A stretch of 64,000 nucleotides of DNA, from the NCBI RefSeq assembly GCF_004216475.1, contig NZ_CP022303.1, forward strand, positions 248,001 to 312,000. The letters are read 5' to 3'. The notes beneath the pieces are model-generated. The model saw only the letters and a program-made list of their open reading frames with translations, searched no databases and was not told the DNA's origin. Shown in pieces: positions 50,224 through 64,000 of this stretch. Position 1 is the stretch's first letter; every line of letters begins with the position of its first letter. A program made the position numbers and the translations under genes. The stretch comes from Thalassococcus sp. S3 (GTDB taxonomy: Bacteria; Pseudomonadota; Alphaproteobacteria; Rhodobacterales; Rhodobacteraceae).

Positions 50224-50535
50224 CAATGCGTACCTTCCGTCATTTGACGTCTGTGGTGGCCAAGCGGCCCGCCTCTGACCATTTCCCGTGTGTGGGGCAA
50301 TGAAAAGCCCGTTTTTGGGTGCGCTCTGATGCACCGCCTTATTATACCCGACCCCCTCCCTTGCCCTAAGGCGGTCAATCAGGCTTGGGCCGTCTCCAAC
50401 GCGGACGAGACGCGCTTAGACAAAACGCAGAGGTGTCAAAGCAGTTTGCGCAGCCACACCGCCAGTAGAACCGACACGTTTGATTGTTGCGGTTAGCTCG
50501 ACATTGCTGCGTGCACAATTTCGGCTTTCATCCGC
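50224..50535. other. gap between DKNYY gene and small membrane protein gene
   Basis: About 310 bp without a convincing gene or hairpin on either strand. It probably contains the promoter of the DKNYY gene, but no clear -35/-10 pair was found. Confidence 0.4.
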
Positions 50536-50895
50536 TCAACGGAAGACATTCAAAAAGGCATAGACCGTCAAGCACGCGCCGAGAGTGAACAGCGCGGCAA
50601 TCAATATGTAAGTCACAATGCCTGCACCCAATTGCGGTGCTGTCGGGAAAAACATGCGGAATGACCCAGCCATTACAAGCAGCCAGCCCGAGAGGGTCAC
50701 CAGCAGGCTCAAGTCTACATCCCAGACATTATGCGTCGTCACGATGATCAGGCCACCGATCAGGAACAGCAAACCGTTCAGGTAGACTACGGAGGGATGG
50801 ACATCTCGCCAGATCCTAAGGTTCAGCAGCTCAGATACAGTGACAATCATAAGTGTTGGCCCAAGCACAGCAGCGACCCGCTGGGAAATGTCCAT
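50536..50895 (-). CDS. small integral membrane protein (119 aa)
   Basis: The ATG at 50895 begins MDISQRVAAVLGP. The 119 residues hold four hydrophobic segments: LGPTLMIVTVSELLNL, YLNGLLFLIGGLIIVT, SLLVTLSGWLLVMAGSF and GIVTYILIAALFTLGACLTVYAFL. A conserved-looking HNVWDVD loop lies in the middle. I do not recognise a named family; DUF-type membrane proteins of this size and topology are common in alphaproteobacteria. It stands alone between the DKNYY gene and the molybdenum hydroxylase genes. Confidence 0.65.
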   Translation of the reverse strand: MDISQRVAAVLGPTLMIVTVSELLNLRIWRDVHPSVVYLNGLLFLIGGLIIVTTHNVWDVDLSLLVTLSGWLLVMAGSFRMFFPTAPQLGAGIVTYILIAALFTLGACLTVYAFLNVFR

Positions 50896-51044
50896 TGGAT
50901 AAAAGCTCCTTGGGCGCGCCGACACGCTGGTTTTACTTTAGTCGGCAGCACGCGTTAGCGATGAAAAAGGCCATACCAGAACACGTTCAACAGCGCTTTG
51001 CCGCTCTCAGCTTTGTGAACTGGGCCGACATGCCATCGGGTCGG

Positions 51045-53189
51045 TCAAGTCGCCACAAAGGGCAACCGGCGCGGGGTTTCCCCGGTGAGGGCACGTATTG
51101 CGTTGCCAATGGCTGGCGCGATCGGCGGCGTTCCGGGCTCACCTATGCCGGTCGGGTCAATGGCACTGTCGATGATCGCCACCTCAACTTCGGGCATCTC
51201 ATTGTTGCGCATAATCCGGTAGGCGTCGTAGTTCCATTGATCGACCTCGCCGCCCTGCCTCAGAGTGATTTCTTCGAACATGGCGGCAGACAGGCCAAAG
51301 CCAAGCCCGCCGGTCATTTGCGTTTCAATAATCGAAGGGTTGATTGCGATGCCGCAATCAACGGCGGCCCAAACTTTGTGGACGCGGGGGACATCACGCT
51401 CGATCGACACATCGGCGATCATGGCGACGTAGCTGCCAAAGCTTTTGTGCAATGCAACACCACGGGCGATGCCGTTGCCCGCATCGGGGCCCTGCCAGTT
51501 CGCCATGTCTGCCACACGCTCCAGCACGCCGCGATGGCGATCCGCGTCATCCGCTTCAAGAAGGTCAAGCCGGCCTTGGACGCGGTCCTTTCCCCCGCGC
51601 TCAAGAAGCTCATCCAGAAACACCTCTGTCGCATAGGCGGTGTGCGTGTGACCAACAGCCCGCCACCACAGAACCGGCACCGGGCTATTCATTGTCGCAA
51701 GCGCGACACGCGCATTCGGCAGCCGGTATGGCAGCCCGCGCGCCCCTTCGACCGAACTTCCATCAATTCCGTCGGTGATGAATTGCTCAAACGGAGAGCC
51801 CGCCAAAAGCGATTGCGTCGCCACGTTGTTGCGCCAGGCGACGATGTTTCCGTCGCTATCGAGGCCGCCTTGCATGTAATGGACAGTCAGCGGGCGGTAG
51901 TAGCCGCCGCGCATGTCATCTTTGCGGCTCCAGATCAGTTTGTAGGCACCGGGGCCAGCGGCTTTGGCGATCTCGGACAGCTCTGCCGTGAAGTGATTGT
52001 CGGCTGTAGTGCGCCGCCCGAAGGATCCGCCTGTGAGCATTGTATTGATCGCGATGTTTTCGGGCGGGAAACCGAACCGGGCCGCCGCTTCATTCTGGTC
52101 AGAGGTTTGCCATTGCGACCCCATCCAGAACTCCGCCCGGTCCTCTGACAGCTCGACCACGCCGTCCAAAGGCTCCATTGCCGCGTGGGATAGGAACGGA
52201 AACCGGAATTCGGCTTCAATGACATCCGTTGCCTCGCTTATCGCGGCCTCAATGTCCCCGCGATCCTCTGCAATGGCTGGCGCACTGCGCGCGGCCTGCG
52301 CCCAGACTGTCATCATCTCGTCCGAGGAACGCGTCTCGGCGTCTGTTTCATCCCATGTGACATTCAGCGCATCGCGGCCTCGGAACGCGGCCCAGGTATC
52401 ATCGGCATAAACGGCGATGCCCGAAGGGATTTGTTCGACCCGCCTTACACCCGGCACGGCCAGCGCCTCAGTCGGATCAAAAGTGGTTACCGTCGCGCCG
52501 AACTTGGGTGGGCGTGCCACGGCGACGGTCAGCATTGCGTCCCGGAAGACATCGATAGCGTAGATCGCAGTGCCGTTCGACTTTTCTGGCGCATCGATCC
52601 GGGGGACATCGCGGCCAACAAGGACGAACTGATCGGGCGTTTTCAGGACCGGCTCTGCTGGCGGTTCAAGACCATCGGCCAGGGCGACCAATTCACCAAA
52701 GGTCGCCTGCAGGTTACCGGCTGACCCAGTATGCGACACAACACCTGCGCGCACCGTGATCTCCTCCGCCGGAACGCCCCAGTCGCGCGCGGCGGCCGCG
52801 ACCAGAACGGCACGTGCGGCCGCACCCGCCTGCCGCATCGGCATCCATGAGGCGGGCGTTGCCGTCGATCCACCGGTGCCCTGCACGCCGAAGATGGAGC
52901 TTGCATAAAGCTCCACATTGGCGGGCGCATTTTCAGCCCGCATCTGGGACCAGTCGGCGTCCAGCTCCTCGGCAACCATTGTGGTCAGACCCGTCCAGGT
53001 GCCTTGGCCAAGCTCACTGTGCTTGACCAGGACCGTAACCACACTGTCGGGCGTTATACGAACAAAGGCGTTCGGCGCGAACACATCCGTTCCCCGAGCT
53101 GCCCGCCCCGGAAGAGGCACGGCTGCTGCAATCACCAACCCGGCTGAGCCAGCAAGGAATGCGCGGCGGTTTGGCATCAACTTTTGCAT
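51045..53189 (-). CDS. iorB: molybdopterin-dependent oxidoreductase large subunit, IorB-like
   Basis: The 714-residue protein begins with a Tat-type signal (NRRAFLAGSAGLVIAAAVP). The catalytic subunit of the xanthine oxidase family shows VKHSELGQGTWTGLTTMVAEEL, TGGSFGRRTTADNHF, and GIGEPGTPPIAPAIGNAI with the active-site glutamate. This matches the isoquinoline 1-oxidoreductase beta-subunit / aldehyde oxidoreductase group. It is probably periplasmic and hydroxylates a heterocycle or oxidises an aldehyde; the substrate is unknown. It follows the 2Fe-2S subunit gene by 3 bp. No cytochrome gene is adjacent in this window. Confidence 0.9.
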   Translation of the reverse strand: MQKLMPNRRAFLAGSAGLVIAAAVPLPGRAARGTDVFAPNAFVRITPDSVVTVLVKHSELGQGTWTGLTTMVAEELDADWSQMRAENAPANVELYASSIFGVQGTGGSTATPASWMPMRQAGAAARAVLVAAAARDWGVPAEEITVRAGVVSHTGSAGNLQATFGELVALADGLEPPAEPVLKTPDQFVLVGRDVPRIDAPEKSNGTAIYAIDVFRDAMLTVAVARPPKFGATVTTFDPTEALAVPGVRRVEQIPSGIAVYADDTWAAFRGRDALNVTWDETDAETRSSDEMMTVWAQAARSAPAIAEDRGDIEAAISEATDVIEAEFRFPFLSHAAMEPLDGVVELSEDRAEFWMGSQWQTSDQNEAAARFGFPPENIAINTMLTGGSFGRRTTADNHFTAELSEIAKAAGPGAYKLIWSRKDDMRGGYYRPLTVHYMQGGLDSDGNIVAWRNNVATQSLLAGSPFEQFITDGIDGSSVEGARGLPYRLPNARVALATMNSPVPVLWWRAVGHTHTAYATEVFLDELLERGGKDRVQGRLDLLEADDADRHRGVLERVADMANWQGPDAGNGIARGVALHKSFGSYVAMIADVSIERDVPRVHKVWAAVDCGIAINPSIIETQMTGGLGFGLSAAMFEEITLRQGGEVDQWNYDAYRIMRNNEMPEVEVAIIDSAIDPTGIGEPGTPPIAPAIGNAIRALTGETPRRLPFVAT

Positions 53190-53192
53190 CGG

Positions 53193-53654
53193 CTATCCCT
53201 CCAACGCGTCAGCGGCTTGGCGAAGGGCGGATCTGATACGCGTGTAGGTGGCGCAACGGCAGAGATTGTCCGTCATCACGTCGACAATTTCCTCATCTGT
53301 CGGGTTCGGGACATCGCGCAAGAACGCTGTTGCGGTCATGACTTGCCCGGATTGGCAATAGCCGCATTGTGCGACTTCAACATCCGTCCACGCTGCCTTG
53401 ACCGCCGCGGCCTCTGGCCCGTCGATCCCTTCGATTGTGGTGACTTCTGCGCCGTTCAGGGTGCCCACAGGTGTGATGCAGGACCGCTGTGCAACACCGT
53501 CAATCAGGACCGTGCAAGCTCCGCATTGCGCAACACCGCATCCGTACTTTGTCCCTGTCAGGCGCAGATCATCCCGGATGACCCATAGCAACGGCTTTTC
53601 CGGATCGACCCGGACCTCTTGCTGGTTTCCGTTGATCCTTATGCTGATAGACAT
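53193..53654 (-). CDS. iorA: 2Fe-2S subunit of molybdenum hydroxylase, IorA-like
   Basis: The 153-residue small subunit has the plant-type 2Fe-2S motif GCGVAQCGACTVLIDG with a later Cys in QRSCITP, and the second cluster motif QCGYCQSGQ with LCRCATYTRIR. It passes electrons from the large subunit. Start at 53654 has a GGGAG site. It precedes the large subunit gene by 3 bp, so the two form an operon. The divergent or convergent LysR gene at 53765-54640 may control it. Confidence 0.92.
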   Translation of the reverse strand: MSISIRINGNQQEVRVDPEKPLLWVIRDDLRLTGTKYGCGVAQCGACTVLIDGVAQRSCITPVGTLNGAEVTTIEGIDGPEAAAVKAAWTDVEVAQCGYCQSGQVMTATAFLRDVPNPTDEEIVDVMTDNLCRCATYTRIRSALRQAADALEG

Positions 53655-53764
53655 GTCGCAATCTCCCTGCGCCGTTGCCACTGGAGATATGTCGTTGACG
53701 CAAGGTCAGAAGTGCCCACGAATGAAAGCTGCGCTTCATAATCGAAACGTTGTAAGGCGTGTGA

Positions 53765-54640
53765 TCAGCTGTCCATGCCCGGATCAATTTGAAGTCGGGT
53801 CGCACCTGCGAAGCGGGGCGCGTCCAAGGTGATCACAGAGACAAACCGGTCAATCACCTTGCGCACGTTCGGGCGATGGCGGTCGGCAGGATGTGTCACG
53901 ATCCAGCTCGCGGTCGACAGGCCGTGGATATTCTCACCCAATCGCTTGAGCCGATGATCGTGATCACCAATGAAACAGGGCAAAGCCATCCGGCCCATTC
54001 CCGCAAGACAAAGCTGCATCCCGGCAATTGGCGTGCTGGCACCGATGACGATTTCGGATGCATGATGTGCGCGCACCCATCGGGCTGACGGTGTATCGGC
54101 CCCGACCTGAATCCATCCTTTGACCGCGTGATCGACCGCATAGCCCGCATATTCAATCCGGCACAGCTTTCTTGTTGCCAGATTGGGCTCTTCAGGCCGC
54201 ATATTGCGAAACCCGATCAACGCCTCACGACGACCGATATCCGCGCGCCGTTCTTCTGCGCTGAGATAGAGTTGGAACGTGTCGTCGGGCGCGGATATCT
54301 GGCCTATCTTTTCGGTGATGTAAGTGGTCATCCATGTGCCGGCGCTGATACGGATGACTTCCGGACCGGCCTCGCTTGCGACATCCTGCTCGGCCTCGAT
54401 GACCCGCTGTTCGATATCACGGACCCGCGCAAGAAGCGTGCTGCCATGCGCCGTCAGGTCATAGCCGCGCGCGTGGCGTTCAAAGAGTTTCACACCCAGC
54501 GATTGCTCCAAACGGTCCATTCGACGGCCCAGTGTCGGGGGACTAGCGCCCGTCTTGTCCACGGCTTTGGCAAGGCTCGCGGCCTCCGCGACACCAAGAA
54601 ACAGCCGCAGATCATCCCATGAGAGCCTCTTTTCACTCAT
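53765..54640 (-). CDS. LysR family transcriptional regulator
   Basis: The 291-residue regulator has the LysR helix-turn-helix at the N terminus (LSWDDLRLFLGVAEAASLAKAVDKTGASPPTLGRRMDRLEQSLGVKLF). Residues after about 90 form the substrate-binding domain, which is less typical in its EVIRISAGTWMTTYITEKIG start. It is on the same strand as the iorAB genes, 110 bp upstream of iorA. It most likely controls them, though control of itself or of a lost neighbour is possible. Confidence 0.87.
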   Translation of the reverse strand: MSEKRLSWDDLRLFLGVAEAASLAKAVDKTGASPPTLGRRMDRLEQSLGVKLFERHARGYDLTAHGSTLLARVRDIEQRVIEAEQDVASEAGPEVIRISAGTWMTTYITEKIGQISAPDDTFQLYLSAEERRADIGRREALIGFRNMRPEEPNLATRKLCRIEYAGYAVDHAVKGWIQVGADTPSARWVRAHHASEIVIGASTPIAGMQLCLAGMGRMALPCFIGDHDHRLKRLGENIHGLSTASWIVTHPADRHRPNVRKVIDRFVSVITLDAPRFAGATRLQIDPGMDS

Positions 54641-54787
54641 GAAGCATGGCCTTCATTTGCAGATCATTATCGACACAATCATATGTGAGATGGGCACGCC
54701 TGCCGCGGAACGCAAAAGAATGCGCGAATTGACACCTCGCAACCGGGGCGGTCTGGCTCGAAGGCCTGGGCTTTCACGCGGCAAACC
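54641..54787. other. gap upstream of qor relic, no gene seen
   Basis: Nothing convincing was found in this stretch, which with the relic at 54788-54862 and the bases up to 54956 makes up a 316-bp gene-free gap. It presumably holds the LysR promoter. Confidence 0.3.
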
Positions 54788-54862
54788 ATGCAAGAGATCA
54801 AAGTGACCCGCTTCGGTGGGCCAGAGGTCCTCACGCGTAGCGTCCCTGTCGGGTGTTCTTAA
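54788..54862 (+). pseudogene. relic of quinone oxidoreductase N terminus
   Basis: The ATG at 54788 starts MQEIKVTRFGGPEVLTRSVPV and then meets a TAA after 24 codons. The opening is the classic start of zinc-independent quinone oxidoreductases (M-x-I-x-V-x-x-F-GGPEVL). The following bases show no convincing continuation in any frame and run into the TetR gene at 54957. I infer a truncated qor copy. The match is short, so chance similarity is possible. Confidence 0.35.
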
Positions 54863-54956
54863 TCTCGCTTCGGCGGGTTCGCATCGTTTGCAATGGTCCG
54901 GCCTCGGGGACTATCTGGATACGGCCGACGCAACGGCAACAAGCGGCGGACGCCGC

Positions 54957-55535
54957 TCAAGGCCCGCCCGTGATCAGCGCAGCGGCCAGCCGGGCGAGAT
55001 TGCGAGGAGAGCGATCATCCAGTGTGTCAGCCGATATCCGGCCCTCGGCAGCAAGGGATGCAAGACCGTGCACAACTCCCCACGCAGCAAGAGTTCGCTC
55101 TTTCCGCTCGACGTCCGTAGCGGCTGGAAGCACTTCCTTTACCGTATCCCGAAGCATATCGTAGGCCGCCCGGGACACGTGGCGAAGTCTCTCGTCGTCT
55201 TCGACCCGCGTGCCCGTGGCGAACATGAGCCGGTACACCCCCAGATTCTCTGCCGCAAAGGTCATATACGCTTCGGCCAATGCCGTAAGGTCGGGCGTCT
55301 CGTGCCTTGCCTCTTCCAGCTCTGATGCAAGGCGCTGAAACCCCCGCACGGCGAGCGCTGTCATCAGGTCAGATTTCGTACGGAAATGCGCGTGTGGAGC
55401 CGTCGCACTGACACCGAGCCGCGCCGCGAGTGCCCGGATGCTGGGCACGGCATCGGGGGTGCGGCGCAGATCGTCCTCGGCGGCGTCTAGCAGAGCGGTG
55501 CGCAGATCTCCGTGGTGGTAGGCAGTGCTATTCAT
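54957..55535 (-). CDS. TetR family transcriptional regulator
   Basis: The 192-residue regulator has the TetR DNA-binding domain near its start (MNSTAYHHGDLRTALLDAAEDDLRR, SIRALAARLGVSATAPHAHFRTKSDLMTALA). YHHGDLR and the TetR_C-type ligand part place it in a common alphaproteobacterial TetR group with WHG-like domains (AAWGVVHGLASLAAEG). The second ATG at 55535, with GAGGA at 5 bp, is preferred over 55538. It is divergent from the small membrane protein gene with operator half-sites between them, so it probably represses that gene and itself. Confidence 0.87.
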   Translation of the reverse strand: MNSTAYHHGDLRTALLDAAEDDLRRTPDAVPSIRALAARLGVSATAPHAHFRTKSDLMTALAVRGFQRLASELEEARHETPDLTALAEAYMTFAAENLGVYRLMFATGTRVEDDERLRHVSRAAYDMLRDTVKEVLPAATDVERKERTLAAWGVVHGLASLAAEGRISADTLDDRSPRNLARLAAALITGGP

Positions 55536-55546
55536 CATATTCCTCG

Positions 55547-55579
55547 AACTAAGCATTGCAAAGTTAGCACTGCATAGTT
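55547..55579. promoter_or_regulatory. three half-site TetR operator
   Basis: AACTAAGCA (55547-55555) faces TGCAAAGTT (55557-55565) one base apart, and a third related half-site TGCATAGTT (55571-55579) follows. The last two half-sites lie in 15-bp units starting at 55552 and 55566 that repeat directly with period 14 and match at 13 of 15 bases. This is the expected form of a TetR operator with an extra site, placed between the TetR gene and the small membrane protein gene. Confidence 0.65.
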
Positions 55580-55615
55580 ATCTGAATGACAGTTCCAAAC
55601 CGAAAGGTCAAACCC

Positions 55616-55822
55616 ATGACGGCTGCATCGCTGCGCACCACCTTACGCTGGTTTCATATCGTTGGTGGACTGATTATCGGCACATATCTGTATTCACCGT
55701 GGTCCGCGAACGCCGCATTCACCGCGCTGACCCTCTACGTGGTCACCCCCGCCCTTGTTCTGAGTGGCCTCGCCATGTGGAAACAGGGGGTCATTATGCG
55801 GTTTTTCCGACGTGATGCCTGA
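55616..55822 (+). CDS. small membrane protein under TetR control (68 aa)
   Basis: The 68-residue product (MTAASLRTTLRWFHIVGG start) has two hydrophobic segments: FHIVGGLIIGTYLYSPW and AFTALTLYVVTPALVLSGLAMW. A basic C-terminal end (RFFRRDA) follows. The ATG at 55616 has AAAGG 8-10 bp upstream; an earlier ATG at 55586 lacks such a site. It is divergent from the TetR gene and lies just after the operator. The function is unknown; a small drug- or lipid-related membrane protein is possible. Confidence 0.65.
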   Translation: MTAASLRTTLRWFHIVGGLIIGTYLYSPWSANAAFTALTLYVVTPALVLSGLAMWKQGVIMRFFRRDA

Positions 55823-56420
55823 GGTGTCGTCGTTTAGGCATTGAGCCTATCACAAGCGGACCTCCATGCCCGGCACAGCGAATGTGAGCACCGTTCCGAT
55901 TCCGGTGAAACTCTTCTTTGATCGGGGGGCACGCCAGCTTGATCAGCGCCGATGTGCAGAAGCAGAACTCGAGCAATCCCGCCACCTCTACCCACTACGA
56001 TCAGTGAAGATAACCTCGCTCAAAACACGCTGGTCATCCCTGCGTGGCTTGCCGTGAAACTTCGGGAAGAGTGGATCCGGACGCGTCATTTGCGCATCTG
56101 TCCGCCAGAAAGATCAGACATGTTCACCGCTCGTTTTCGAGCCGTGAACCAGAAGGTGCCCCAGAAATCAATGGCGCCTGACCCTCGCAATAATGACTTA
56201 TATGATGCAATCTTTGTGCACAATATAATCCGTATTGCCGATTGTTAACTTAAATAATTAATTTTTAGATTTATATTTGACCAACAATCCATTCTTCTCG
56301 ATTGATTTGGTCTTGAAAATAAGTTATCCAGAAAAGGTGAATATTCTTACATTATTTTCCTAACCGCTAATGCAATTAGCATAGATTACTTACACATAAA
56401 AAATATCTTCTGAACGCTGT
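55823..56420. other. 600-bp gene-poor stretch with AT-rich end
   Basis: No convincing gene on either strand. The first part (to about 56160) has ordinary base composition, and short translations here match no family I recognise. From about 56230 to 56420 the sequence is markedly AT-rich (TTAACTTAAATAATTAATTT and similar), unlike the rest of the window. It ends at the LysR stop and may hold a terminator or transfer boundary. Confidence 0.45.
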
Positions 56421-57338
56421 TTAGCCGCTTATACTGCCTTGGTCACTCAACCAATGATATAGCAGATCTGCGCTGCTGGAAACCTTGTTTGTCTTGGATC
56501 TCACCAGATGATACTGAAACCCACTGTTGCGAAAACTGTGGTGATCCAGAACTTTTACCAGCCGTCCAGATTGCAATTCGGCATCCGAATTCGCCTCGCT
56601 GACCAAGGCGACGCCCAAGCCTGAAACGGCTGCATCAATCGCCATCATCTCGTTCGAAAACTTGTGTCCCTTTTGCAGATCTATGGCCTTGCTGTTCACA
56701 CCGGCCGCCTTCACCAACATGTCCCACCCCGGCACCAGGTCTGGGCTTCCCCGCCAGTCAGTATGCAAGAGCGGATACTTGTCCAGCTCGGAGAGATCAT
56801 TCAAACCGCCATGCCTTTCCAGCAAATCTGGACTTGCAACAATGTGATACACGCCGTCGATCAGGGGAACGACTTCAAGGTCGGGGTAGTCGCCATTGCC
56901 ATAGCGAATCCCGATGTCGGCCTGGCCCTGACAGAGATCGACAAGCTCATCGGTGGCGTTAAGCCGGATCTCCAGCTTCGGATGTTGCTCGTTGAACGTC
57001 TCCAGTCGGGGGACCAGCCATTTCATGCAGAAAGACAGGGGCGCGGTCAGGGTCAACCAGTTCCGCCCGGTGTCGCCTTTGATCACATCGCAGGCTTCGG
57101 TAAACTTTTCCAACGCATTGGACATTAGTGGAGCGGCCAGTTTTCCAATACGCGTTAATTTCAAAGATCGTGCTTGGCGGACAAACAACTTAACGTCGTA
57201 ATAATCCTCCAAAGATTTGACATGCTGGCTGACAGCGGCAGGGGTAACGTGAAGCTCTTCAGCCGCTTTTTTAAAGCTGGAATGCCGCGCTGCCGCCTCG
57301 AACGCTTTCAACCAATTCAGGGGTGGCAGGGAAATCAA
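56421..57338 (-). CDS. LysR (GcvA-type) transcriptional regulator
   Basis: The 305-residue regulator has the LysR N terminus LPPLNWLKAFEAAARHSSFKKAAEELHVTPAAVSQHVKSLEDYY. The substrate domain has GcvA-type blocks (QADIGIRYGNGDYPDLEVVPLI, SPDLLERHG). Its base composition is lower in GC than the genes around it. It is divergent from the ectoine-like operon (ectA at 57784) and is the nearest regulator, so it may control it. I see no MarR-type EctR in the window. Confidence 0.88.
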   Translation of the reverse strand: MISLPPLNWLKAFEAAARHSSFKKAAEELHVTPAAVSQHVKSLEDYYDVKLFVRQARSLKLTRIGKLAAPLMSNALEKFTEACDVIKGDTGRNWLTLTAPLSFCMKWLVPRLETFNEQHPKLEIRLNATDELVDLCQGQADIGIRYGNGDYPDLEVVPLIDGVYHIVASPDLLERHGGLNDLSELDKYPLLHTDWRGSPDLVPGWDMLVKAAGVNSKAIDLQKGHKFSNEMMAIDAAVSGLGVALVSEANSDAELQSGRLVKVLDHHSFRNSGFQYHLVRSKTNKVSSSADLLYHWLSDQGSISG

Positions 57339-57783
57339 AAGAGCACCTCGGCACTCGCATTAGCTGAACTGACGCATGACTTAGAAATCATAGCTTGTGT
57401 GATAAACCTCTTTTGGATCATTCTCGGTGTCAACAAGTCAGCCGTTTCTTCCGGCAGATTCTTGCCAATGAGAGAGTTGGTGAAGTCAGGGATATTTTTT
57501 CGGCGACGCTTGTAAATATCGGGTTCGGCTCACCTCCTATATTCCGCGCGGAAACGGGTGTGAGCTCTCGGGCGATGAACGGCCTCGCTGCTGGACCGTG
57601 CATCCTGCCCGCTCGTCTCTGAACGGCAGCACGTGCCGAAAACACCGGCGGGCGCGTCATCTCGATGAGGCCCGACGCCATGCTCAACTTTCGCCGCAGC
57701 GTTATCGCCAAGGGCTCGGAGGCGCCTGTGCTGGCCTGCCCGGACCCTGGCCCGATGCAAAGATCCATAGAAAGGAAACAGAC
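57339..57783. promoter_or_regulatory. divergent control region between LysR and ectoine-like operon
   Basis: 445 bp with no convincing gene. It must hold the promoters of the LysR gene and the ectA operon, but no clear -35/-10 pair or LysR T-N11-A dyad could be fixed by eye. The last 15 bp contain the AAAGGAA ribosome-binding site of ectA. Confidence 0.45.
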
Positions 57784-58338
57784 GTGAATACCGTCAGATT
57801 TCAAAGTCCAGACCTGGCTCACACCCGAAGCATTATCGAATTGGTCAGCGATACGCCCTGGCTGGATTCGAACAGCGAATACGCCTATGCGCTGTGGTGC
57901 ACGCATTTTGCCGAAAACTCCGTGGTTGCCCTGCGCGACAACGAGGTGATCGGCTTTTTGACAGGCTTTCGATCCCCACGCCGCCCTGAAACCTACTTTC
58001 TTTGGCAAACCGCAACCAAACCCCGGCACGGTGTCGCGGGGCTTGGCGTGGACATGATCGCCTATGCGGCGGAGCGGGAGATCAGTCGCGGGGCCGACCA
58101 GATCGAAGCGTCGGTTGACGAGAAGAACAAGGCGATCCGGCTGCTCATGAAGTCTCTCGCCAAGCGCCTCGACGGCCGTATCGAAGAGGAGTTGCTGTTT
58201 CCCGGCTCCCTCCTGGCCGGTGCGGGGGACGACCATCACGACGAAACCCTGATGCGCATTTGTCTGGACCGCCGGACCGATCGCGAGCCTGTGAATACCC
58301 CCGCACCGGATCACGTTGCAGAGGAGGCCGCGGCATGA
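57784..58338 (+). CDS. ectA: EctA-like GNAT acyltransferase (diaminobutyrate N-acyltransferase)
   Basis: The 184-residue GNAT protein resembles L-2,4-diaminobutyrate acetyltransferase (EctA). The shared pattern is DTPWLDSNSEYAYALWCTHFAENSVVALRDNEVIGFLTGF, then FLWQTATKPRHGVAGLG, and the C-terminal EELLFPG. The GTG at 57784 has AAAGGAA upstream; longer in-frame starts add non-family sequence. The CoA-pyrophosphate loop, RGQGL(A/G) in usual EctA, reads GVAGLG, so the key Arg/Gln is missing. That is unusual and may mean a different acyl donor. It overlaps the decarboxylase gene by 4 bp. It should acylate diaminobutyrate made by EctB. Family call is sure, donor is not. Confidence 0.85.
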   Translation: MNTVRFQSPDLAHTRSIIELVSDTPWLDSNSEYAYALWCTHFAENSVVALRDNEVIGFLTGFRSPRRPETYFLWQTATKPRHGVAGLGVDMIAYAAEREISRGADQIEASVDEKNKAIRLLMKSLAKRLDGRIEEELLFPGSLLAGAGDDHHDETLMRICLDRRTDREPVNTPAPDHVAEEAAA

Positions 58339-60062
58339 GCACCAATGTTTCCCAAACATTCGCCGTTCACGGACAAAGCGGGGCCTGGCTTCCCGACCGG
58401 CAGCTGGCAGAACGGGTGTCGCACCACTTCGGCACGCCGGCCTTCGTCTACAACGCCGACTATCTGCGCCATAATTTCGATATGCTGCGTCAGCAACTGT
58501 CGCCTTCGATCGACCTTCTCTATTCGCTCAAGGCCAATCCGAACGCGGCAATCGTGGATTGCCTGCGCGCTTGCGGTGCCGGTGCCGAGGTCTCCTCGCG
58601 CGCTGAATTGCACACCGCCATCCGGGTTGGGATCGACCCCGCAAACATCATTTTCGTCGGTCCCGCAAAGTGCCGGGACGAAATCGCCGATTGTATCCGG
58701 TTCGGGATCTTCGCGATCGTCGCGGAATCCGCGCAAGAGCTGGACGAGATCCAGCGACAGGCCGAAGCGTCCGGCGTCAAGCGAGCCGTGAATGTCATGC
58801 TGCGCGTCAATCCGGATTTCAAAACAAGCGGATCTGGCCTGACGATGAGCGGCAAGCCACGCCAATTCGGCATAGATGTCGAACAAGTGCCGGGCCTGCG
58901 CGGAAAACTCGATACGCTCGCGCTGGTCCGGGTGATCGGCTTTCACGTCTATATGGGGACAAGGTATCTCGAAGCAGAGCCGGTTATCGAGAACACCGAG
59001 AACATTCTCGACATGGCCGAACGCCTTGCCCGCGATCTGGATATCGAGATCGAAGCGGTGGATGTCGGGGGCGGCTTCGGTGTGCCTTACTTCGACAACG
59101 AGGAGAAACTGGACCTTCCCAAACTCGCCCGAGGCGTCAACGCCGCTGTCGCGCGGTTCCGCAAGTCCAATCCCGCGACCCGCGTGATGATCGAACTTGG
59201 CCGGTACCTCTCAGCCGGGGCAGGCGCTTTGCTGACCTCCGTGCGCTACGTGAAGGTGTCGCGGGGGGAAACCTTTGCCATCGCGGATGGGGGCACGAAC
59301 CTGCATATGGCGGCTGTCGGGGTCGGGGGGTTCGCCAAACGCTCCTTTCCCATCGTGAACCTCTCGCGTGATCGTTCCGGGTCGGACGGGGTTGTCACCC
59401 TGACCGGGCCCCTCTGCACGCCGAGTGACACGATGGCGCGCAAAGCCGATCTGGGCGAGGTGGAAGAAGGCGATGTCATCGCGGTGCTGTGCTCAGGGGC
59501 TTACGGCCCAACCGCGTCGCCCACAGGGTTTCTAAGCCACGGCTATCCCAACGAGGTTCTGGTTGACGGTGACGATCTGCACCTTGTGCGGGCGGCGGAC
59601 AGTGTCAGCGACATCATATCGGCCTACCGGCTGCCCGGCGACCTCCCTCTGCCCGGCGATAAAAGCGAATTCACGATTTCGACGCGCCTGTCGGCGTCCG
59701 ATGCCCATTATGGCGGCGGCATCGTCGATGGCGCGCATATCCTACAGCTTTTCGGGGATGCCGTCACCGGGCTGGCCGCCTTGCAGGATGGCGATGAGAG
59801 CCTGCTGCAAACCTGGGAAAACGTCGAATTCCAGCGCCCGGCCCGGCCCGGGGACTTCCTCACCGTCCGTGCGCGCATCACGCGGCGAAAACGCCTGCGC
59901 CGCTATGTCGAGGTCGAGGCGCTTCGGACCGTCCGTGCCCCGGATGCGGCGACATCCACCGTCATTCCCGTCTCTCCCCCCGAGCGTATTGCCACGGCGA
60001 AAGGGCTCATCGTTGTTCCGATGCCCAATCGCCAATCCAAACCGGAAGAGGTGTCTCAATGA
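58335..60062 (+). CDS. type III PLP decarboxylase fused to Kal-like hotdog ammonia-lyase domain
   Basis: This 575-residue protein has two parts. Residues about 15-430 are a type III PLP (alanine racemase/DAP-ornithine decarboxylase fold) enzyme, with the PLP lysine in YSLKANPN (K66), the glycine-rich phosphate loop VDVGGGFGVPYF, ELGRYLSAGAGALL and the decarboxylase cysteine in GPLCTPSDT (C361). Residues about 445-570 form a hotdog domain, SASDAHYGGGIVDGAHILQLFGD, DGDESLLQTWENVEF, PARPGDF and AKGLIVVP. It follows 3-aminobutyryl-CoA and beta-alanyl-CoA ammonia-lyases (Kal/Acl) closely by memory. I know no such fusion. It overlaps the genes before and after (ATGA both sides). Expected role is to decarboxylate an ACP-bound amino acid and then remove or add ammonia. 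The substrate is inferred, perhaps aspartyl-ACP. Confidence 0.8.
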   Translation: MSTNVSQTFAVHGQSGAWLPDRQLAERVSHHFGTPAFVYNADYLRHNFDMLRQQLSPSIDLLYSLKANPNAAIVDCLRACGAGAEVSSRAELHTAIRVGIDPANIIFVGPAKCRDEIADCIRFGIFAIVAESAQELDEIQRQAEASGVKRAVNVMLRVNPDFKTSGSGLTMSGKPRQFGIDVEQVPGLRGKLDTLALVRVIGFHVYMGTRYLEAEPVIENTENILDMAERLARDLDIEIEAVDVGGGFGVPYFDNEEKLDLPKLARGVNAAVARFRKSNPATRVMIELGRYLSAGAGALLTSVRYVKVSRGETFAIADGGTNLHMAAVGVGGFAKRSFPIVNLSRDRSGSDGVVTLTGPLCTPSDTMARKADLGEVEEGDVIAVLCSGAYGPTASPTGFLSHGYPNEVLVDGDDLHLVRAADSVSDIISAYRLPGDLPLPGDKSEFTISTRLSASDAHYGGGIVDGAHILQLFGDAVTGLAALQDGDESLLQTWENVEFQRPARPGDFLTVRARITRRKRLRRYVEVEALRTVRAPDAATSTVIPVSPPERIATAKGLIVVPMPNRQSKPEEVSQ

Positions 60063-61585
60063 CTTTGCTTCATCAACTTCTCGACCGTGCCGCCGCGTCC
60101 AACCCGCGCGCGCCCGTCCTCGCATATGGCGATCAGGTGCTGACCTTGTCGCAGCTTCGAGCCGGTGCGCGGTCGCTTGCGCGCTGGTTGTCGGATACCG
60201 GCGTGTCCCCCGGTGACCGGGTGATCGTGCAGGCCGACAACAACCCTATGACGGCGGTGCTGATCTATGCAATCAGCACCATCGGTGGCTGCTTTATCCC
60301 GGTTCATCCCACAACCCCCGTCAAGCAGTTCGATTACATCCGGGAAAATTCCGGGGCTGTCATGGTGCTTTCCTGCCGGGGTGGGGACTGGCTGGCCAAG
60401 GTCGGCGAGACCCACGTGGGCGTTCCAAGGCTTGGCGATCTGCTGCACGCCGACACGGGCAATCTGCCTCTTTCCACCTTCAACCTTGGCATCATCCCCG
60501 AGGATCTGGCCTGCATGATCTACACGTCCGGATCCACCGGGCGCCCCAAGGGGGTGACATGTCTGCATCGCCAAATGGTGTTCTCTATCGCCGCCATCGC
60601 CGAGGCCCTAGATTACCTGGCTGGCGATGTCATCTTCTGCTCCTTGCCCTTGTCTTTCGACTACGGCCTCTACCAGCTCTTTCTCGCCGTCGAATGCGGG
60701 GCCGTGCTTCGACTGGAAAACCCGGATATCGGCGGTCTTGGCCTCTTCAGGGCGCTCAAGAAAAGCCGCGCCAACGTGCTGCCGGCCGTGCCCGCGATGA
60801 TCGAGGCGCTTGCGGTGATGGGCAAACGCAAACCCGGTGAGCTTCCCGATCTGCGCCTGATCACGAACACCGGCGCCGCGCCGTCGCCCGCATCCATCAA
60901 GACCTTGCGGGGCGCCTTTCCCCGCCTCGGGTTCCAGCTCATGTACGGATTGACCGAATGCAAGCGTGTCAGCATCGCGCCCGTGGATGGCGATCTGCTC
61001 AAGCCCGGCACATGCGGCCGTCCGCTCCGCGGAACGCGGGTCGAGGTGGTGGGCGAAGACGGCGCGGTCCTGCCGCCCAACTCAATTGGCGAGTTTGTCA
61101 TATCCGGCCCGAACGTGATGGCCGGATATTGGAAATCCGAGGAGCTGACGAACAAGACCTACCGGACACAGCACGCCACGCTGCGCCGCCTTCACAGCGG
61201 GGATTACGGCTGGATGGACGAGGACGGTTATCTTTATTGCGAGGGCCGGCGCGACGACATCTTCAAGGTGCGCGGCTTCCGCGTCAGCTGCTCGGAGATC
61301 GAGGCGGCCTGCTGCGAAGCGCCCGTCGTCCGTCACGCGGTGATGGTGCCGCCCGCACCCGGTCGGCCATCCACGCTTTTCATCTGCGCATCTGAATCCG
61401 AATTCGATCTGCTCGGCTTTCTCGACGAACGGCTTGAGCCCTACAAGATACCGGATCGCATTCGGCTGATCGACGACATGCCGCGCACGGCAAACAACAA
61501 GTTTGACCGAAAGGCGCTTGTTCAAAGCCTTCAGGCCGAAATGCACCAAGCCCCAACACAAAAGCAGGAGATGACCCATGCTTGA
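60059..61585 (+). CDS. AMP-forming acyl/aminoacyl ligase, ACP-loading type
   Basis: The 508-residue adenylate-forming enzyme has the P-loop YTSGSTGRPKGV (K164), the A5 block LMYGLTECKRV, the A7/A8 blocks GDYGWMDEDGYLYCEGRRDDIFKVRGFRVS and the catalytic lysine in TANNKFDRKAL (K481). Stand-alone ligases of this type load acids onto an adjacent ACP, as VinN and FlvN do for aspartate-type amino acids. Exosortase-linked AMP ligases are also similar. It starts overlapping the decarboxylase stop by 4 bp and overlaps the ACP start by 8 bp, so it is translated with both. Substrate is unknown; an amino acid with a second carboxylate would fit the next steps. Confidence 0.85.
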   Translation: MTLLHQLLDRAAASNPRAPVLAYGDQVLTLSQLRAGARSLARWLSDTGVSPGDRVIVQADNNPMTAVLIYAISTIGGCFIPVHPTTPVKQFDYIRENSGAVMVLSCRGGDWLAKVGETHVGVPRLGDLLHADTGNLPLSTFNLGIIPEDLACMIYTSGSTGRPKGVTCLHRQMVFSIAAIAEALDYLAGDVIFCSLPLSFDYGLYQLFLAVECGAVLRLENPDIGGLGLFRALKKSRANVLPAVPAMIEALAVMGKRKPGELPDLRLITNTGAAPSPASIKTLRGAFPRLGFQLMYGLTECKRVSIAPVDGDLLKPGTCGRPLRGTRVEVVGEDGAVLPPNSIGEFVISGPNVMAGYWKSEELTNKTYRTQHATLRRLHSGDYGWMDEDGYLYCEGRRDDIFKVRGFRVSCSEIEAACCEAPVVRHAVMVPPAPGRPSTLFICASESEFDLLGFLDERLEPYKIPDRIRLIDDMPRTANNKFDRKALVQSLQAEMHQAPTQKQEMTHA

Positions 61586-61847
61586 CGCACCCTACACCCA
61601 AAACGAGGCGCGCGACGATCTGCGCAAGGCGCTCGCAGCCGTTCTCGAAGAGGCGATACCGCCCCTCTCTGACGAGATGAACCTCTTTCGCGAGTTTCGT
61701 CTGGATTCGATGAGCATGCTCGAGACGCTGATGGAACTTGAAGACATGCTCGGCTTCAACGTCGACCCCGAGGATCTGGACATCAAGGATTTCGAGACCG
61801 TGGGCGGCTATTCCAGCTTTCTGGTCGCGATCAAGACGGAAGCGTGA
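61578..61847 (+). CDS. acyl carrier protein
   Basis: The 89-residue acidic protein has the phosphopantetheine site FRLDSMSM (Ser44) followed by the helix LETLMELEDMLGFNVDPEDLD, as in stand-alone peptidyl/acyl carrier proteins. The N-terminal helix (RDDLRKALAAVLEEA) is charged. It overlaps the ligase gene by 8 bp, and ectC follows after 40 bp with a GAAGGAG site. It should be the carrier for the ligase and decarboxylase. Its attached phosphopantetheine is inferred from the motif. Confidence 0.87.
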   Translation: MLDAPYTQNEARDDLRKALAAVLEEAIPPLSDEMNLFREFRLDSMSMLETLMELEDMLGFNVDPEDLDIKDFETVGGYSSFLVAIKTEA

Positions 61848-61887
61848 CCCCCGGTAATCCCAAAGGCCCATCGAAGGAGAAACACCC

Positions 61888-62292
61888 ATGATCATCAGAT
61901 CGCTCGACAGCATCACCGACACCGACCGCGATGTCAAAGGCGCCCTTGGCACCTGGCGCAGCAAGCGCCTGATCCTCGCAGACGACAATGTCGGCTTCTC
62001 GCTGCATGAAACAACCGTCTATCCGGGCACCGAAACCGATCTGTGGTACAAGCATCATGTCGAAGCGGTGCTGTGCGTCGAAGGCGAATGCGAGCTGACC
62101 AACCGCGACACCGGCGAGGTTTTCATGATCGGGCCGGGCGATATGTATCTGCTCGACAAGCATGACCGGCACACCTTGCGACCGAAAACCCGTTTTCGCG
62201 CCATCTGCGTGTTCAACCCGCCCGTGACCGGGCGAGAGGATCATGATGGTGACGGCGCTTACCCGGCGCCTGTTTCGGCCGCCGCGGAATAG
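61888..62292 (+). CDS. ectC: ectoine synthase homologue
   Basis: The 134-residue cupin matches EctC, which closes N-gamma-acetyl-diaminobutyrate to ectoine. Expected metal ligands are E59 (KHHVEAV), Y87 (GDMYLLD) and H95 (KHDRHTL), with T42/T43, Y54 and W23 also in family positions. Differences from the consensus I recall are L39 for Phe (GFSLHETT), L62 for Tyr (VEAVLC) and T96 for Tyr (DRHTLR), all near the substrate pocket. They could allow a larger acyl group. Start at 61888 has GAAGGAG. The family call is secure; acetyl versus other substrate is open. Confidence 0.9.
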
Positions 62293-62370
62293 ACGGTTCC
62301 GCCGGCTCCCGTTTCAGGCGGGCGCGGCATCCCCGCACCGGCCCTGAACACCGACTACGCAGCCGCAGGC

Positions 62371-62409
62371 CCCCCTGCCCTCTTTCCGACAAAACCGCGG
62401 GGCAGGGGG
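62371..62409 (+). other. stem-loop between ectC and ectB
   Basis: CCCCCTGCCC (62371-62380) pairs with GGGCAGGGGG (62400-62409) as a perfect 10-bp stem with a 19-nt loop. No T-tract follows. It sits in the 182-bp gap between ectC and ectB and may stabilise mRNA or reduce read-through into ectB-ask. Confidence 0.5.
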
Positions 62410-62474
62410 CATTTCAAACCCGGCGCACCGCGTTGCGCCGCCCGTCTGCCTGCCCCCGAAAAAGGAGAGGAAGA

Positions 62475-63758
62475 ATGAACATGCAACGCCGTTCCAAGTC
62501 TGTCTTCACGCGTCGTGAATCCGGGGCGCGAAGTTACTGCCGGGCGTTCGACACCATATTCACGTCGGCGCAAGGGTCCGAAATGGTGGATTGTGAAGGC
62601 CGCCGCTACATCGACTTTCTGGCGGGATGTTCCTCGCTGAATTACGGACACAACGATCCCGATATGAAGGCAGCCCTGGTCGATCACATCTGCCGGGATG
62701 GGCTGGCCCACGGTCTTGATCTGCATACGGGCACCAAGGCCGAGTTCATCCAGGCCTTCGAGGAGCATGTTCTGCAACCCCGTGGGCTGAACCACCGGCT
62801 GATGTTTACCGGCCCGACCGGCGCCAACGCCGTCGAGGCCGCGCTCAAGATTGCACGCAAGGCCACCGGACGCACCAACGTGATCGCCTTCACCAACGGC
62901 TTTCACGGCGTCACCCTGGGCGCGCTTGCCGCAACCGGCAATGCCTATCATCGGGGCGGTGGCGGTCTGCCGCTCGCGAATGTCACCCACATGCCCTTCG
63001 ATGGATATGCCGAAGGGTTGGATAGTGTGGGTCTGCTGCGGAAGATGCTTTGCGATGCGTCGTCCGGGCTGGATGCCCCGGCAGCCTTCCTTTTGGAAAC
63101 CGTTCAGGGAGAGGGCGGGCTCAACGTCTCGGGTGACCGCTGGCTGGCCGATATCGCGACCCTGGCACGCGAGACCGGCGCCCTGATGATTGTCGATGAC
63201 ATTCAGGCCGGGTGCGGCAGGACAACGGGCTTCTTCTCGTTCGAGCGTGCCGGCATAACCCCCGACATCATCACGCTGGCCAAGTCGATCTCGGGGTTCG
63301 GCCTTCCCATGAGCCTTGTTCTGGTGCGGCCCGAATACGACGTGCTGGGACCGGCGGAACATAATGGCACCTTTCGCGGGAACACCCACGCCTTCATCAC
63401 CGCACGTATCGCCATCGAAAAGTTCTGGGCTGGGGGCCGGTTCGAAAAGGATATCCGCCGCCGTTCCGGTATTGTGGAACGGGGCCTCCAGAAGATCGCC
63501 GCCCTTGTTCCGGGCGCGCGGCTCAAGGGTCTGGGGATGATGCAGGGCGTCGATGTCGGGTCCGGCGACCTCGCTGCCGCGATCTGCCGCGCGGCTTTCC
63601 GGCAGGGCCTGATCATCGAAACATCCGGTCCCGACGATCAGGTGGTCAAGGTTCTCGCCCCGCTGACCACGCCGGATGAGATGCTCGAAGCCGGATTGTC
63701 GATCCTGATCGAAGCCACGCGCCACGCCATCACCGCACCCCGCATCGCGGCGGAGTGA
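62475..63758 (+). CDS. ectB: diaminobutyrate-2-oxoglutarate transaminase
   Basis: The 427-residue class III aminotransferase matches EctB, which converts aspartate semialdehyde to L-2,4-diaminobutyrate. EctB-type blocks are RSYCRAFDTIF, FLAGCSSLNYGHNDP, FTGPTGANAVEAALK, IVDDIQAGCGRTG-like DDIQAGCGRTTGFFSFE and the PLP-lysine in LAKSISGFGLPMS (K270). The ATG at 62475 has AAGGAGAGG upstream. It follows ectC, not ectA, so gene order departs from the common ectABC. The aspartokinase gene follows after 61 bp. Confidence 0.94.
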   Translation: MNMQRRSKSVFTRRESGARSYCRAFDTIFTSAQGSEMVDCEGRRYIDFLAGCSSLNYGHNDPDMKAALVDHICRDGLAHGLDLHTGTKAEFIQAFEEHVLQPRGLNHRLMFTGPTGANAVEAALKIARKATGRTNVIAFTNGFHGVTLGALAATGNAYHRGGGGLPLANVTHMPFDGYAEGLDSVGLLRKMLCDASSGLDAPAAFLLETVQGEGGLNVSGDRWLADIATLARETGALMIVDDIQAGCGRTTGFFSFERAGITPDIITLAKSISGFGLPMSLVLVRPEYDVLGPAEHNGTFRGNTHAFITARIAIEKFWAGGRFEKDIRRRSGIVERGLQKIAALVPGARLKGLGMMQGVDVGSGDLAAAICRAAFRQGLIIETSGPDDQVVKVLAPLTTPDEMLEAGLSILIEATRHAITAPRIAAE

Positions 63759-63819
63759 CCGCGCCGGGCTGCTTGACGCGTCGCGAAATTGAAATTCTGT
63801 TAGGAGGGGCAGATCAGAT

Positions 63820-64000
63820 ATGACCCATATCGTGGAAAAGATCGGCGGCACGTCGATGTCGCGCCTGAATGAGCTGTGTCACACGCTCTTTATCCGAAAT
63901 GGCACTCCGCGATACGGTCGATATTTCGTGGTTTCGGCCTTTGCCGGGATCACCAACCTCCTGCTTGAGCACAAGAAGTCCGGCCAGCCGGGGGTCTATA
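63820..64000 (+). CDS. ask: aspartate kinase (ectoine-type Ask, 3' end outside window)
   Basis: Only about 60 codons are in the window. The start MTHIVEKIGGTSMSRLNEL is the aspartokinase N terminus (usual KFGGTS motif, here KIGGTS), followed by GRYFVVSAFAGITNLLLEHKK. This form is seen in the Ask_Ect aspartokinases next to ectoine genes. The ribosome-binding site AGGAGGGG lies upstream. It supplies aspartyl-phosphate for aspartate semialdehyde and hence diaminobutyrate. The rest, including regulatory domains, is not visible. Confidence 0.85.
   Translation, partial: MTHIVEKIGGTSMSRLNELCHTLFIRNGTPRYGRYFVVSAFAGITNLLLEHKKSGQPGVY

Follow-up and report, generated by a model that had tools for sequence, protein, structure and literature searches.

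The last 6.2 kb of a 64,000-nucleotide stretch of the Thalassococcus sp. S3 chromosome (NZ_CP022303.1, positions 248,001 to 312,000, hereafter the window) carry an operon, entirely on the + strand, in which ectA is followed by a decarboxylase-hotdog fusion gene, a ligase gene, an acyl carrier protein (ACP) gene, ectC, and ectB. Ectoine is a textbook osmolyte. Judging from gene content and residue conservation, we somewhat favor reading this operon as a dedicated cluster for an ectoine analogue, 2-vinyl-ectoine, whose C2 side chain would derive from aspartate by way of a carrier protein. The product is very probably an analogue rather than ordinary ectoine, and we are just as confident that the acyl donor is carried on the ACP; a vinyl rather than an aminoethyl side chain is likely.

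In the proposed pathway, the ligase, which resembles VinN, would adenylate the beta-carboxyl group of Asp and load it onto the ACP, the type III pyridoxal phosphate (PLP) domain of the fusion would decarboxylate Asp-ACP to beta-alanyl-ACP, and the fused hotdog domain would remove ammonia to give acryloyl-ACP. EctA would then move the acryloyl group from the ACP to N-gamma of 2,4-diaminobutyrate, itself supplied by the aspartokinase, the general Asd, and EctB, and EctC would close the ring to give 2-vinyl-1,4,5,6-tetrahydropyrimidine-4-carboxylate (2-vinyl-ectoine). A transporter of the MFS family probably moves the product across the membrane, probably outward. The nearest solved relatives of the ligase, the decarboxylase, and the hotdog domain fit successive steps, which supports the pathway. 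The features of the operon are as follows.

57784..58338, +: EctA-type acyltransferase (GNAT) with an altered donor loop, predicted acyl-ACP:diaminobutyrate N-acyltransferase (TIGR02406, 120.5 bits; cut-off 120.6)
58024..58047, +: altered coenzyme A (CoA)-pyrophosphate loop of EctA, residues 81-88, RHGVAGLG (alignment against other EctAs)
58335..60062, +: fusion of a type III PLP decarboxylase (residues 1-432) and a putative hotdog aminoacyl-thioester ammonia-lyase domain (residues 433-575) (BtrK, NF052388, 4mtu)
59631..60059, +: hotdog ammonia-lyase domain of the fusion (pattern in common with 4mtu)
60059..61585, +: VinN-like ligase forming adenosine monophosphate (AMP), predicted aspartate (beta-carboxyl):ACP ligase (top PDB match 3wvn, 344.6 bits)
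61578..61847, +: stand-alone ACP with an LDSM phosphopantetheine site (PF00550, 7.6e-9)
61888..62292, +: EctC, ectoine-synthase-type cyclase with substituted positions (PRK13290, 186.4 bits; cut-off 128)
62475..63758, +: EctB, diaminobutyrate aminotransferase (TIGR02407, 568.2 bits; cut-off 552.2)
63820..64000, +: beginning of a linked aspartate kinase that runs past the window end (PRK09181, 583.6 bits; cut-off 536)

Followed past the window end, the gene order is ectA-X-X-X-ectC-ectB-ask; the initial annotation had described it from ectA through three genes to ectC and ectB, and the aspartokinase then follows. It had also stated that all junctions up to the ACP overlap, and they do, by 4 bases (ectA/fusion), 4 bases (fusion/ligase), and 8 bases (ligase/ACP). 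The gap between the ACP gene and ectC is 40 bases, and that between ectC and ectB is 182 from the chosen ATG, with an earlier TTG start at 62433 possible for ectB. The start codon of ectA is GTG, preceded by AGAAAGGA. The fusion matches profiles of both the TIGR03099/lysA-type decarboxylases and NF052388, 3-aminobutyryl-CoA ammonia lyase; its AlphaFold model was poor (mean predicted local distance difference test score, pLDDT, of 50 from a three-row alignment) and was not used. The full aspartate kinase has 472 aa (L002 6821-8239; L numbers denote our loci), and its partner in the Tateyamaria locus described below is 83% identical. An Rfam gathering scan of 50000-64000 for an RNA element gave 0 matches.

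Recurrence and Distribution of the Block

A search for the block in other genomes, as the initial annotation had proposed, shows that it is not confined to Thalassococcus: it is present in nine loci from two phyla, our own and eight others (three alphaproteobacterial genomes, one Rhizobium plasmid, and four Streptomyces plasmids), plus one decayed copy. A chance neighborhood is excluded by this recurrence. The fusion-protein scan, with one genome per species, gave 32 loci, all of which were tested for ect genes by tblastn, and EctA, EctC, and the lyase domain occur together in only three of them, from uncultured Tateyamaria (L023), Pseudovibrio exalbescens (L024), and Ferruginivarius sediminum (L025), all Alphaproteobacteria. 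In a plasmid collection the fusion matched 282 records, five of which cover at least 80% of the query, and all five carry the block: a conjugative plasmid of Rhizobium gallicum (L055) and plasmids of Streptomyces strains NBC_01208 (L056), S501 (L062), NBC_00111 (L057), and CA-256286 (L059). Actinobacterial coverage consists of Streptomyces plasmids, not chromosomes. L056 and L062 are near copies; both are counted in totals of nine, and L062 is omitted from trees.

In four of the nine loci (our own, L023, L024, and L055) the decarboxylase and the hotdog domain form one fusion protein, and in three (L025, L056, and L062) the hotdog domain has a gene of its own. Since the gene order differs in Streptomyces, the linkage reflects function and not only a frozen operon.

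Estimates of rarity are approximate, because for most genomes only the first three or four candidates received a score and diverged or split versions would escape the strict limits; on this footing, six of 390 genomes in the order sample match the fusion at 1e-85, with the lyase part spanned by the Thalassococcus match alone and the others stopping at or before query residue 456 of 576, and 3/385 match in the class sample, where again only our own spans the lyase part. At 1e-110, the only match among 297 genomes of the order of Pseudovibrio is Pseudovibrio itself, and the only one among 398 in the phylum sample is our own genome. Of 61 relatives scanned under looser limits, 51 had a match, only our own extending across the whole query. 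The rare, scattered, and often plasmid-borne occurrence fits spread by transfer. GC content gives no mark of foreign origin, as the operon (57784-63758) and the window both have a value of 0.622.

Two further observations concern copies of the block. L057 and L059 encode the hotdog domain as part of a fusion with a holo-ACP synthase (L057 13239-14162, L059 13239-14177), an uncommon combination that links activation of the carrier with processing of the acyl group. The decayed copy lies on a conjugative plasmid of Rhizobium bangladeshense (L111 4007-11104), where it is disrupted by insertion sequences and retains the regulator, MFS, and ACP genes and pieces of ectA and ectC.

Formation of the Carrier-Bound Acyl Group

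The top PDB match of the ligase, 3wvn (344.6 bits), is listed as a non-ribosomal peptide synthetase and is, we presume, VinN; its Asp246, Ser315, and Arg347 match the published Asp230, Ser299, and Arg331 at one constant offset. In VinN, Asp230 recognizes the alpha-amino group and Ser299 and Arg331 the alpha-carboxyl group, as given in a section of PMC7756342. By alignment, with numbering by hand, Asp201, Thr271, and Arg303 of our ligase occupy these three positions. Across the block ligases the recognition Asp and Arg are kept in 9/9 and the Ser299 equivalent is Thr in 9/9, so that the VinN-type recognition residues are present with one conservative change. The VinN-type precedent invoked in the initial annotation is consistent with this pattern.

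For the decarboxylase, the nearest PDB entry is BtrK at 274.5 bits, followed by diaminopimelate decarboxylase at 169.7; the name VinO does not appear among the 50 matches listed. BtrK is an ACP-dependent decarboxylase, and the block enzyme is predicted to be of the same kind, in line with the decarboxylation step put forward earlier. The block thus combines a type III PLP decarboxylase of the predicted ACP-dependent kind with a stand-alone ACP of family PF00550, and the Asp-Ser of the phosphopantetheine site is kept in all 10 aligned ACPs, that of L111 included.

The hotdog domain is closest to beta-alanyl-CoA:ammonia lyase (4mtu, 2.6e-12), with an acyl-CoA hydrolase next at 0.039, which agrees with the lyase step suggested from the sequence at the outset. 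It matches NF052388 at 1.1e-27 and 96.8 bits, below the cut-off of 160, and an AHYxG, VxGAxI, GD, GDxxL pattern is common to 4mtu and all nine block domains. The domain therefore has the sequence family and conserved blocks of the ammonia lyases and falls short of the full-length equivalog score. Ten records of the plasmid collection match it; five are the block records, and two others, from Acetoanaerobium and Fusobacterium, are from anaerobes, in which a fermentation lyase is expected. Because this family removes a beta-amino group, carrier-bound Asp would be a fitting substrate. By the same reasoning, a Glu or gamma-aminobutyrate (GABA) route as in butirosin was rejected, as GABA-ACP would lack the beta-amino group.

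The main competing explanation, which we consider unlikely, is that no deamination precedes transfer, so that EctA would move beta-alanyl and EctC would form 2-(2-aminoethyl)-ectoine, with the hotdog domain acting as a proofreader or in reverse. The reaction of beta-aminoacyl-thioester ammonia lyases is reversible, which counts in its favor, and a ligase, an ACP, and a decarboxylase suffice for beta-alanyl-ACP, as in the FlvN-type pathway described in part of PMC11284099. Against this stands the lyase domain itself, found in 9/9 loci and fused to the decarboxylase in four and to holo-ACP synthase in two; being universal and often fused, it is probably needed for the usual product, and vinyl is favored over aminoethyl.

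It is improbable that the substrate is instead 3-methyl-Asp or another beta-carboxyl amino acid, which would lead, through methacryloyl-ACP or a substituted acyl-ACP, to a 2-isopropenyl analogue or one like it. VinN, the nearest solved structure, prefers 3-methyl-Asp, according to a portion of PMC11284099. The E subunit of glutamate mutase, needed for 3-methyl-Asp, however, has no match in the Thalassococcus genome and is not annotated in the fetched stretches of L055, L056, L057, L059, and L062, whereas methylaspartate mutase genes do adjoin the VinN-like ligase and decarboxylase in two other Streptomyces clusters. The lack of the E subunit makes the 3-methyl-Asp route less likely and favors Asp, the substrate that had been proposed at first.

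EctA Donor Loop

The block EctAs were compared with 30 others, namely the 24 with loci among the 26 matches from other genomes that exceed the TIGR02406 cut-off and six from plasmid loci (L110, L112, L114, L117, L118, and L120). Ahead of the central helix the others have the loop R-G-x-G-x-A (R and first G in 30/30, second G in 29/30, A in 28/30), which we take to be the pyrophosphate-binding loop of GNAT enzymes. At residues 81-88 they read x-x-R-G-x-G-[LVI]-A; all nine block EctAs have R-H-G-[IV]-[PA]-x-L-G in the same columns, with G83 and I/V84 replacing R83 and G84. In addition, S118 is changed to Ile or Met and F122 to Met or Leu in 9/9 block EctAs, both being unchanged in 30/30 others. 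The positions fixed in both sets include L27, D28, N30, S31, Y33, F42, W74, Q75, N115, and E154, which implies that the fold is retained, as is part of the site. Thus the CoA-pyrophosphate loop expected of an EctA that uses acetyl-CoA is, as far as the alignment tells, not present in the block proteins, and a switch of donor from acetyl-CoA to acyl-ACP predicts such a change.

Other comparisons agree that these proteins are EctAs of a distinct group. The AlphaFold model of EctA (mean pLDDT of 74.8, from four sequences) has EctAs as its first 11 structure matches, headed by 6sjy_C (E 5.3e-15), and in the EctA tree the block proteins fall on one side of a branch with support of 100/99. Among the best 40 of 54 plasmid records with EctA matches, the five block records and the decayed copy take the top six places (43.9-63.4% identity), and the remaining 34 are at or below 37.9% identity.

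The genome-wide search found a single ectC and a single EctA match in Thalassococcus, and no second, ordinary ectoine operon, with both genes searched. With the EctA loop lost and no other ectA or ectC in the genome, the whole operon looks dedicated. This replaces the picture in the initial annotation, in which an ordinary ectoine operon had taken in a module, and such a passenger arrangement was rejected on the loop change and the single ect set. The corresponding functional reading, in which the operon's output is ordinary ectoine, an osmolyte, and the additional three genes serve a separate product under the same promoter, is about as improbable as the 3-methyl-Asp route. It draws on the retention of EctB and of most listed EctC residues, on the linked aspartokinase, and on this being the sole ect operon in the genome. 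The loop residues, however, are lost in all block members, the overlapping genes occur together in both phyla, the shared gene set holds no other acceptor enzyme for an acyl-ACP, and ectB does not occur in the fetched stretches of L025, L055, L056, and L062.

We note separately a plasmid cluster of Streptomyces sp. M54 (L154 6175-19490) with an EctA-like gene that also lacks the loop Arg and the first Gly; its product groups with the block EctAs (support 99/98). This, too, is in line with a carrier-protein donor and counts in favor of the proposed pathway. The cluster also encodes ACPs, a VinN-like ligase, a type III decarboxylase, an acyl-CoA dehydrogenase, and an EctB-like aminotransferase (50.6%), its fetched stretch has no ectC match, and a gene of the enoyl-CoA-hydratase family adjoins ectA. 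Enzymes of that family can be beta-aminoacyl-CoA ammonia lyases, as stated in part of PMC4619459. In S. californicus, matching EctA and ligase hits lie 3 kb apart.

EctC and EctB

EctB scores as an ectoine-type enzyme, above its cut-off, and EctC has the catalytic and substrate-binding residues of ectoine synthase. All the contact and metal residues named in the relevant part of PMC6344544 are present in the window EctC except Asn-38, which is His here and in 31/41 other rows, and seven of them (Trp23, Arg27, Thr42, Tyr54, Glu59, His95, and Phe109) are kept in 9/9 block EctCs. The comparison set, which takes in orphan EctCs outside ectoine operons, consists of 29 loci and 12 others, giving 41 rows and 40 genes (L076 and L115 are the same gene, and L076 is omitted from the tree); two matches above the cut-off have no locus. 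Position 68 is Gly in 41/41 of these rows and Cys, Thr, or Met in 9/9 block rows, and positions 103 and 105 also differ in the block. We infer that these substitutions lie near the acyl group. The block EctCs cluster together in the tree (93/92), next to the set's three actinobacterial sequences, from Streptomyces (L110), Embleya (L112), and Tsukamurella (L114), a position that suggests an actinobacterial origin.

An end point at N-gamma-acyl-diaminobutyrate or another open-chain product, or a different cyclization by EctC, would suit the substituted EctC positions in 9/9, the His in place of the metal-ligand Tyr in L057 and L059, and the M54 cluster, with such an EctA and no ectC match in its fetched stretch, but it is highly improbable given the seven contact and metal residues (PMC6344544, in part) kept throughout and the ectoine hydroxylase beside two of the clusters.

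Orphan ectC genes were seen at L115 7938-8327, L116 5001-5399, and L119 5001-5381. By annotation, those of R. gallicum and S. mexicanum lie near a type I polyketide synthase (PKS), and that of Aliiroseovarius lies beside ketosynthases, an acyl-CoA dehydrogenase, an AMP ligase, and an ACP. EctC may be a more general former of cyclic amidines in specialized metabolism.

Weight and Significance of the Proposal

Several observations weigh against the 2-vinyl-ectoine pathway. The ligase pocket differs from that of VinN, with Thr for Ser299 in every block ligase. The hotdog domain reaches 96.8 bits where its family cut-off is 160, and its substrate could be another beta-aminoacyl thioester; the DAHY motif of this domain has Ala for Asp in L055 and Glu for Asp in L057 and L059. 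Two solved EctAs both keep R83, but Arg occupies position 84 in one of them and position 86 in the other; the Arg is therefore the firm signal and the glycines are less so, and a drifted EctA working on another small thioester would also fit the EctA changes. In L057 and L059, the change of the metal-ligand Tyr to His in EctC means that ring closure may differ there. Linkage of ectB, within the fetched stretch, holds for only five of nine loci. Finally, what we observe is gene content, conservation, family membership, and residue patterns, and it is from these that every reaction, substrate, and product, the direction of transport, and the biological role are inferred.

The link to a transporter, the frequent location on plasmids, the presence of a LysR gene, and the patchy occurrence suggest a specialized metabolite more than a compatible solute. 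A broader proposal, which we regard as rather doubtful, is that bacteria of two phyla make and export 2-vinyl-ectoine, a natural vinyl amidine that resembles ectoine and bears a Michael acceptor; it could act as an antimetabolite that enters competitors through their ectoine uptake systems. An EctA using acyl-ACP and a beta-alanyl ammonia lyase dependent on ACP would belong to this route.

The cluster probably makes a compound so far undescribed. In the best-ranked open-access titles and openings of abstracts we found no description of such a cluster; nor did we find an open-access paper on acryloyl-ACP/beta-alanyl-ACP or a description of an ACP-dependent beta-alanyl ammonia lyase or an acyl-ACP-using EctA. 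Genes for ectA and ectC are routinely annotated as ectoine genes, and the Streptomyces copies of the block are labeled ectA and ectoine synthase. A section of the review PMC5924519, whose text does not contain the term "acyl carrier", cites R. gallicum among genomes that combine a complete ect set with an orphan ectC. Block copies may accordingly have passed as ordinary ectoine genes. The ect genes seem to have switched to a donor bound to a carrier protein, and the lost EctA loop Arg offers a simple sequence test for clusters that may not make ectoine. If the proposal is correct, the scaffold would be new among small molecules, ammonia lyases acting on beta-aminoacyl thioesters would gain a role in biosynthesis, and bacteria would have a defined way of making an acryloyl unit on a carrier.

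Comparison with Known Systems

The block shares with the ectABC(-ask_ect) operon an EctB, an EctC with a conserved core, and an acyltransferase of the EctA fold, and in two loci (our own and L023) the linked aspartokinase. It differs in the three extra genes between ectA and ectC (in other orders in Streptomyces), in an EctA without the loop Arg, in its linked MFS transporter, and in its scattered, often plasmid-borne occurrence. Four of the nine copies stand beside a LysR gene, whereas ect operons can have a MarR-type regulator, EctR, according to part of PMC5924519.

With the VinN/VinL/VinO and FlvN/FlvL/FlvO sets, which supply beta-aminoacyl-ACP macrolactam starters, the block has in common the ligase, the stand-alone ACP, and the type III PLP decarboxylase, as well as, by prediction, a carrier-bound, side-chain-activated acidic amino acid as the decarboxylase substrate. 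Unlike them, it has no PKS, its predicted acceptor is diaminobutyrate through EctA, and a deaminating domain is added. No PKS is annotated in the stretches of L055, L056, L057, L059, and L062, and L023-L025 contain no non-overlapping open reading frame above 900 aa, so there is no sign of hand-over to a PKS; the R. gallicum plasmid does have a PKS elsewhere, with a different ectC.

The lyases of the 4mtu and 3-aminobutyryl-CoA type share the hotdog domain and its conserved blocks with our protein. They act on CoA thioesters in fermentation, whereas the block domain, often fused to the decarboxylase or to holo-ACP synthase, is predicted to act on an ACP thioester in biosynthesis.

The dehydro-beta-alanine module of bolagladin (BolO, BolC, BolN, and BolQ) likewise has a VinN-like ligase, an ACP, and a BtrK-like decarboxylase, and conversion of Asp to beta-alanyl-ACP is proposed there (PMC7756342, in part). 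In that module an acyl-CoA-dehydrogenase-like enzyme acts on an N-acyl-beta-alanyl thioester, whereas elimination of ammonia is predicted for the block. Such a desaturase is absent from the window block and is not annotated in the blocks of L055, L056, L057, L059, and L062; it is present in other clusters with a related decarboxylase.

Regulator, Transporter, and Neighboring Genes

The genes named in the initial annotation all belong to the unit, whose extent is larger than it had claimed, with a LysR gene beside four of the nine blocks and, past the window end, MFS and EutA-like genes. The neighboring features are as follows.

56421..57338, -: GcvA-like LysR regulator, divergent to and upstream of the operon (PRK11139 GcvA, 264.5 bits; cut-off 288)
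65530-66309 in window positions (L002 8531-9310), past the window end, -: EutA-like gene (TIGR02990, 293 bits; cut-off 318)
66373-67788 in window positions (L002 9374-10789), past the window end, -: conserved MFS transporter

The LysR gene, with a GC content of 0.532, has its counterparts in L023 (88% identity), L024 (64%), and L055 (47%), and no match at 1e-5 in L025, L056, L057, L059, and L062. One MFS family accompanies eight of the 10 block copies, at 36-88% identity to our protein; in Thalassococcus and L023 it is encoded downstream of the aspartokinase, and in L024, L025, L055, L056, L062, and the decayed L111 it lies within or next to the block. It resembles the monocarboxylate transporter model SfMCT, far below the cut-off. 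L057 and L059 have a drug-efflux-like MFS protein nearby in its place. The EutA-like and MFS genes are convergent with the aspartokinase, and the same pair occurs in L023 (EutA-like protein 91% identical). EutB has no match above its cut-off in the Thalassococcus genome, and our guess is that the EutA-like protein tailors or detoxifies the product.

L057 and L059 additionally encode a P450, a ferredoxin, a reductase, and an ectoine hydroxylase that scores over its cut-off, and each plasmid has one ectC; a hydroxylase beside a lone ectC is expected if the ring is ectoine-like. In some Streptomyces, 2-vinyl-ectoine is perhaps hydroxylated further by EctD and the P450.

Other loci contain parts of this set. 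In Streptomyces sp. BHT-5-2 (L061) a relative of the decarboxylase has an MFS gene of the same family about 2 kb away, with no ect, ligase, or lyase match in the locus, whose record is unannotated. The Thalassococcus genome also encodes an 811-aa fusion (C1:65062-67494; L153 7063-9495) of a related decarboxylase, 47% identical over 394 residues to that of the block, with acyl-CoA dehydrogenase domains, a layout that recalls the bolagladin module and clusters in Gemmobacter (L058) and Agrobacterium vitis (L063); a ketosynthase label in this second cluster was dropped for want of a Pfam family match. On a plasmid of Rhizobium ruizarguesonis (L157 5968-9572), a lyase-like hotdog gene stands, by annotation, beside an AMP ligase, a thioesterase, and a quinone oxidoreductase, a set that perhaps serves CoA-dependent degradation of beta-amino acids. 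Elsewhere in the window, and unrelated to the ect block, are a molybdopterin-binding hydroxylase subunit (51045-53189, -; PF20256/PF02738) and its 2Fe-2S partner (53193-53681, -; PF01799/PF00111).

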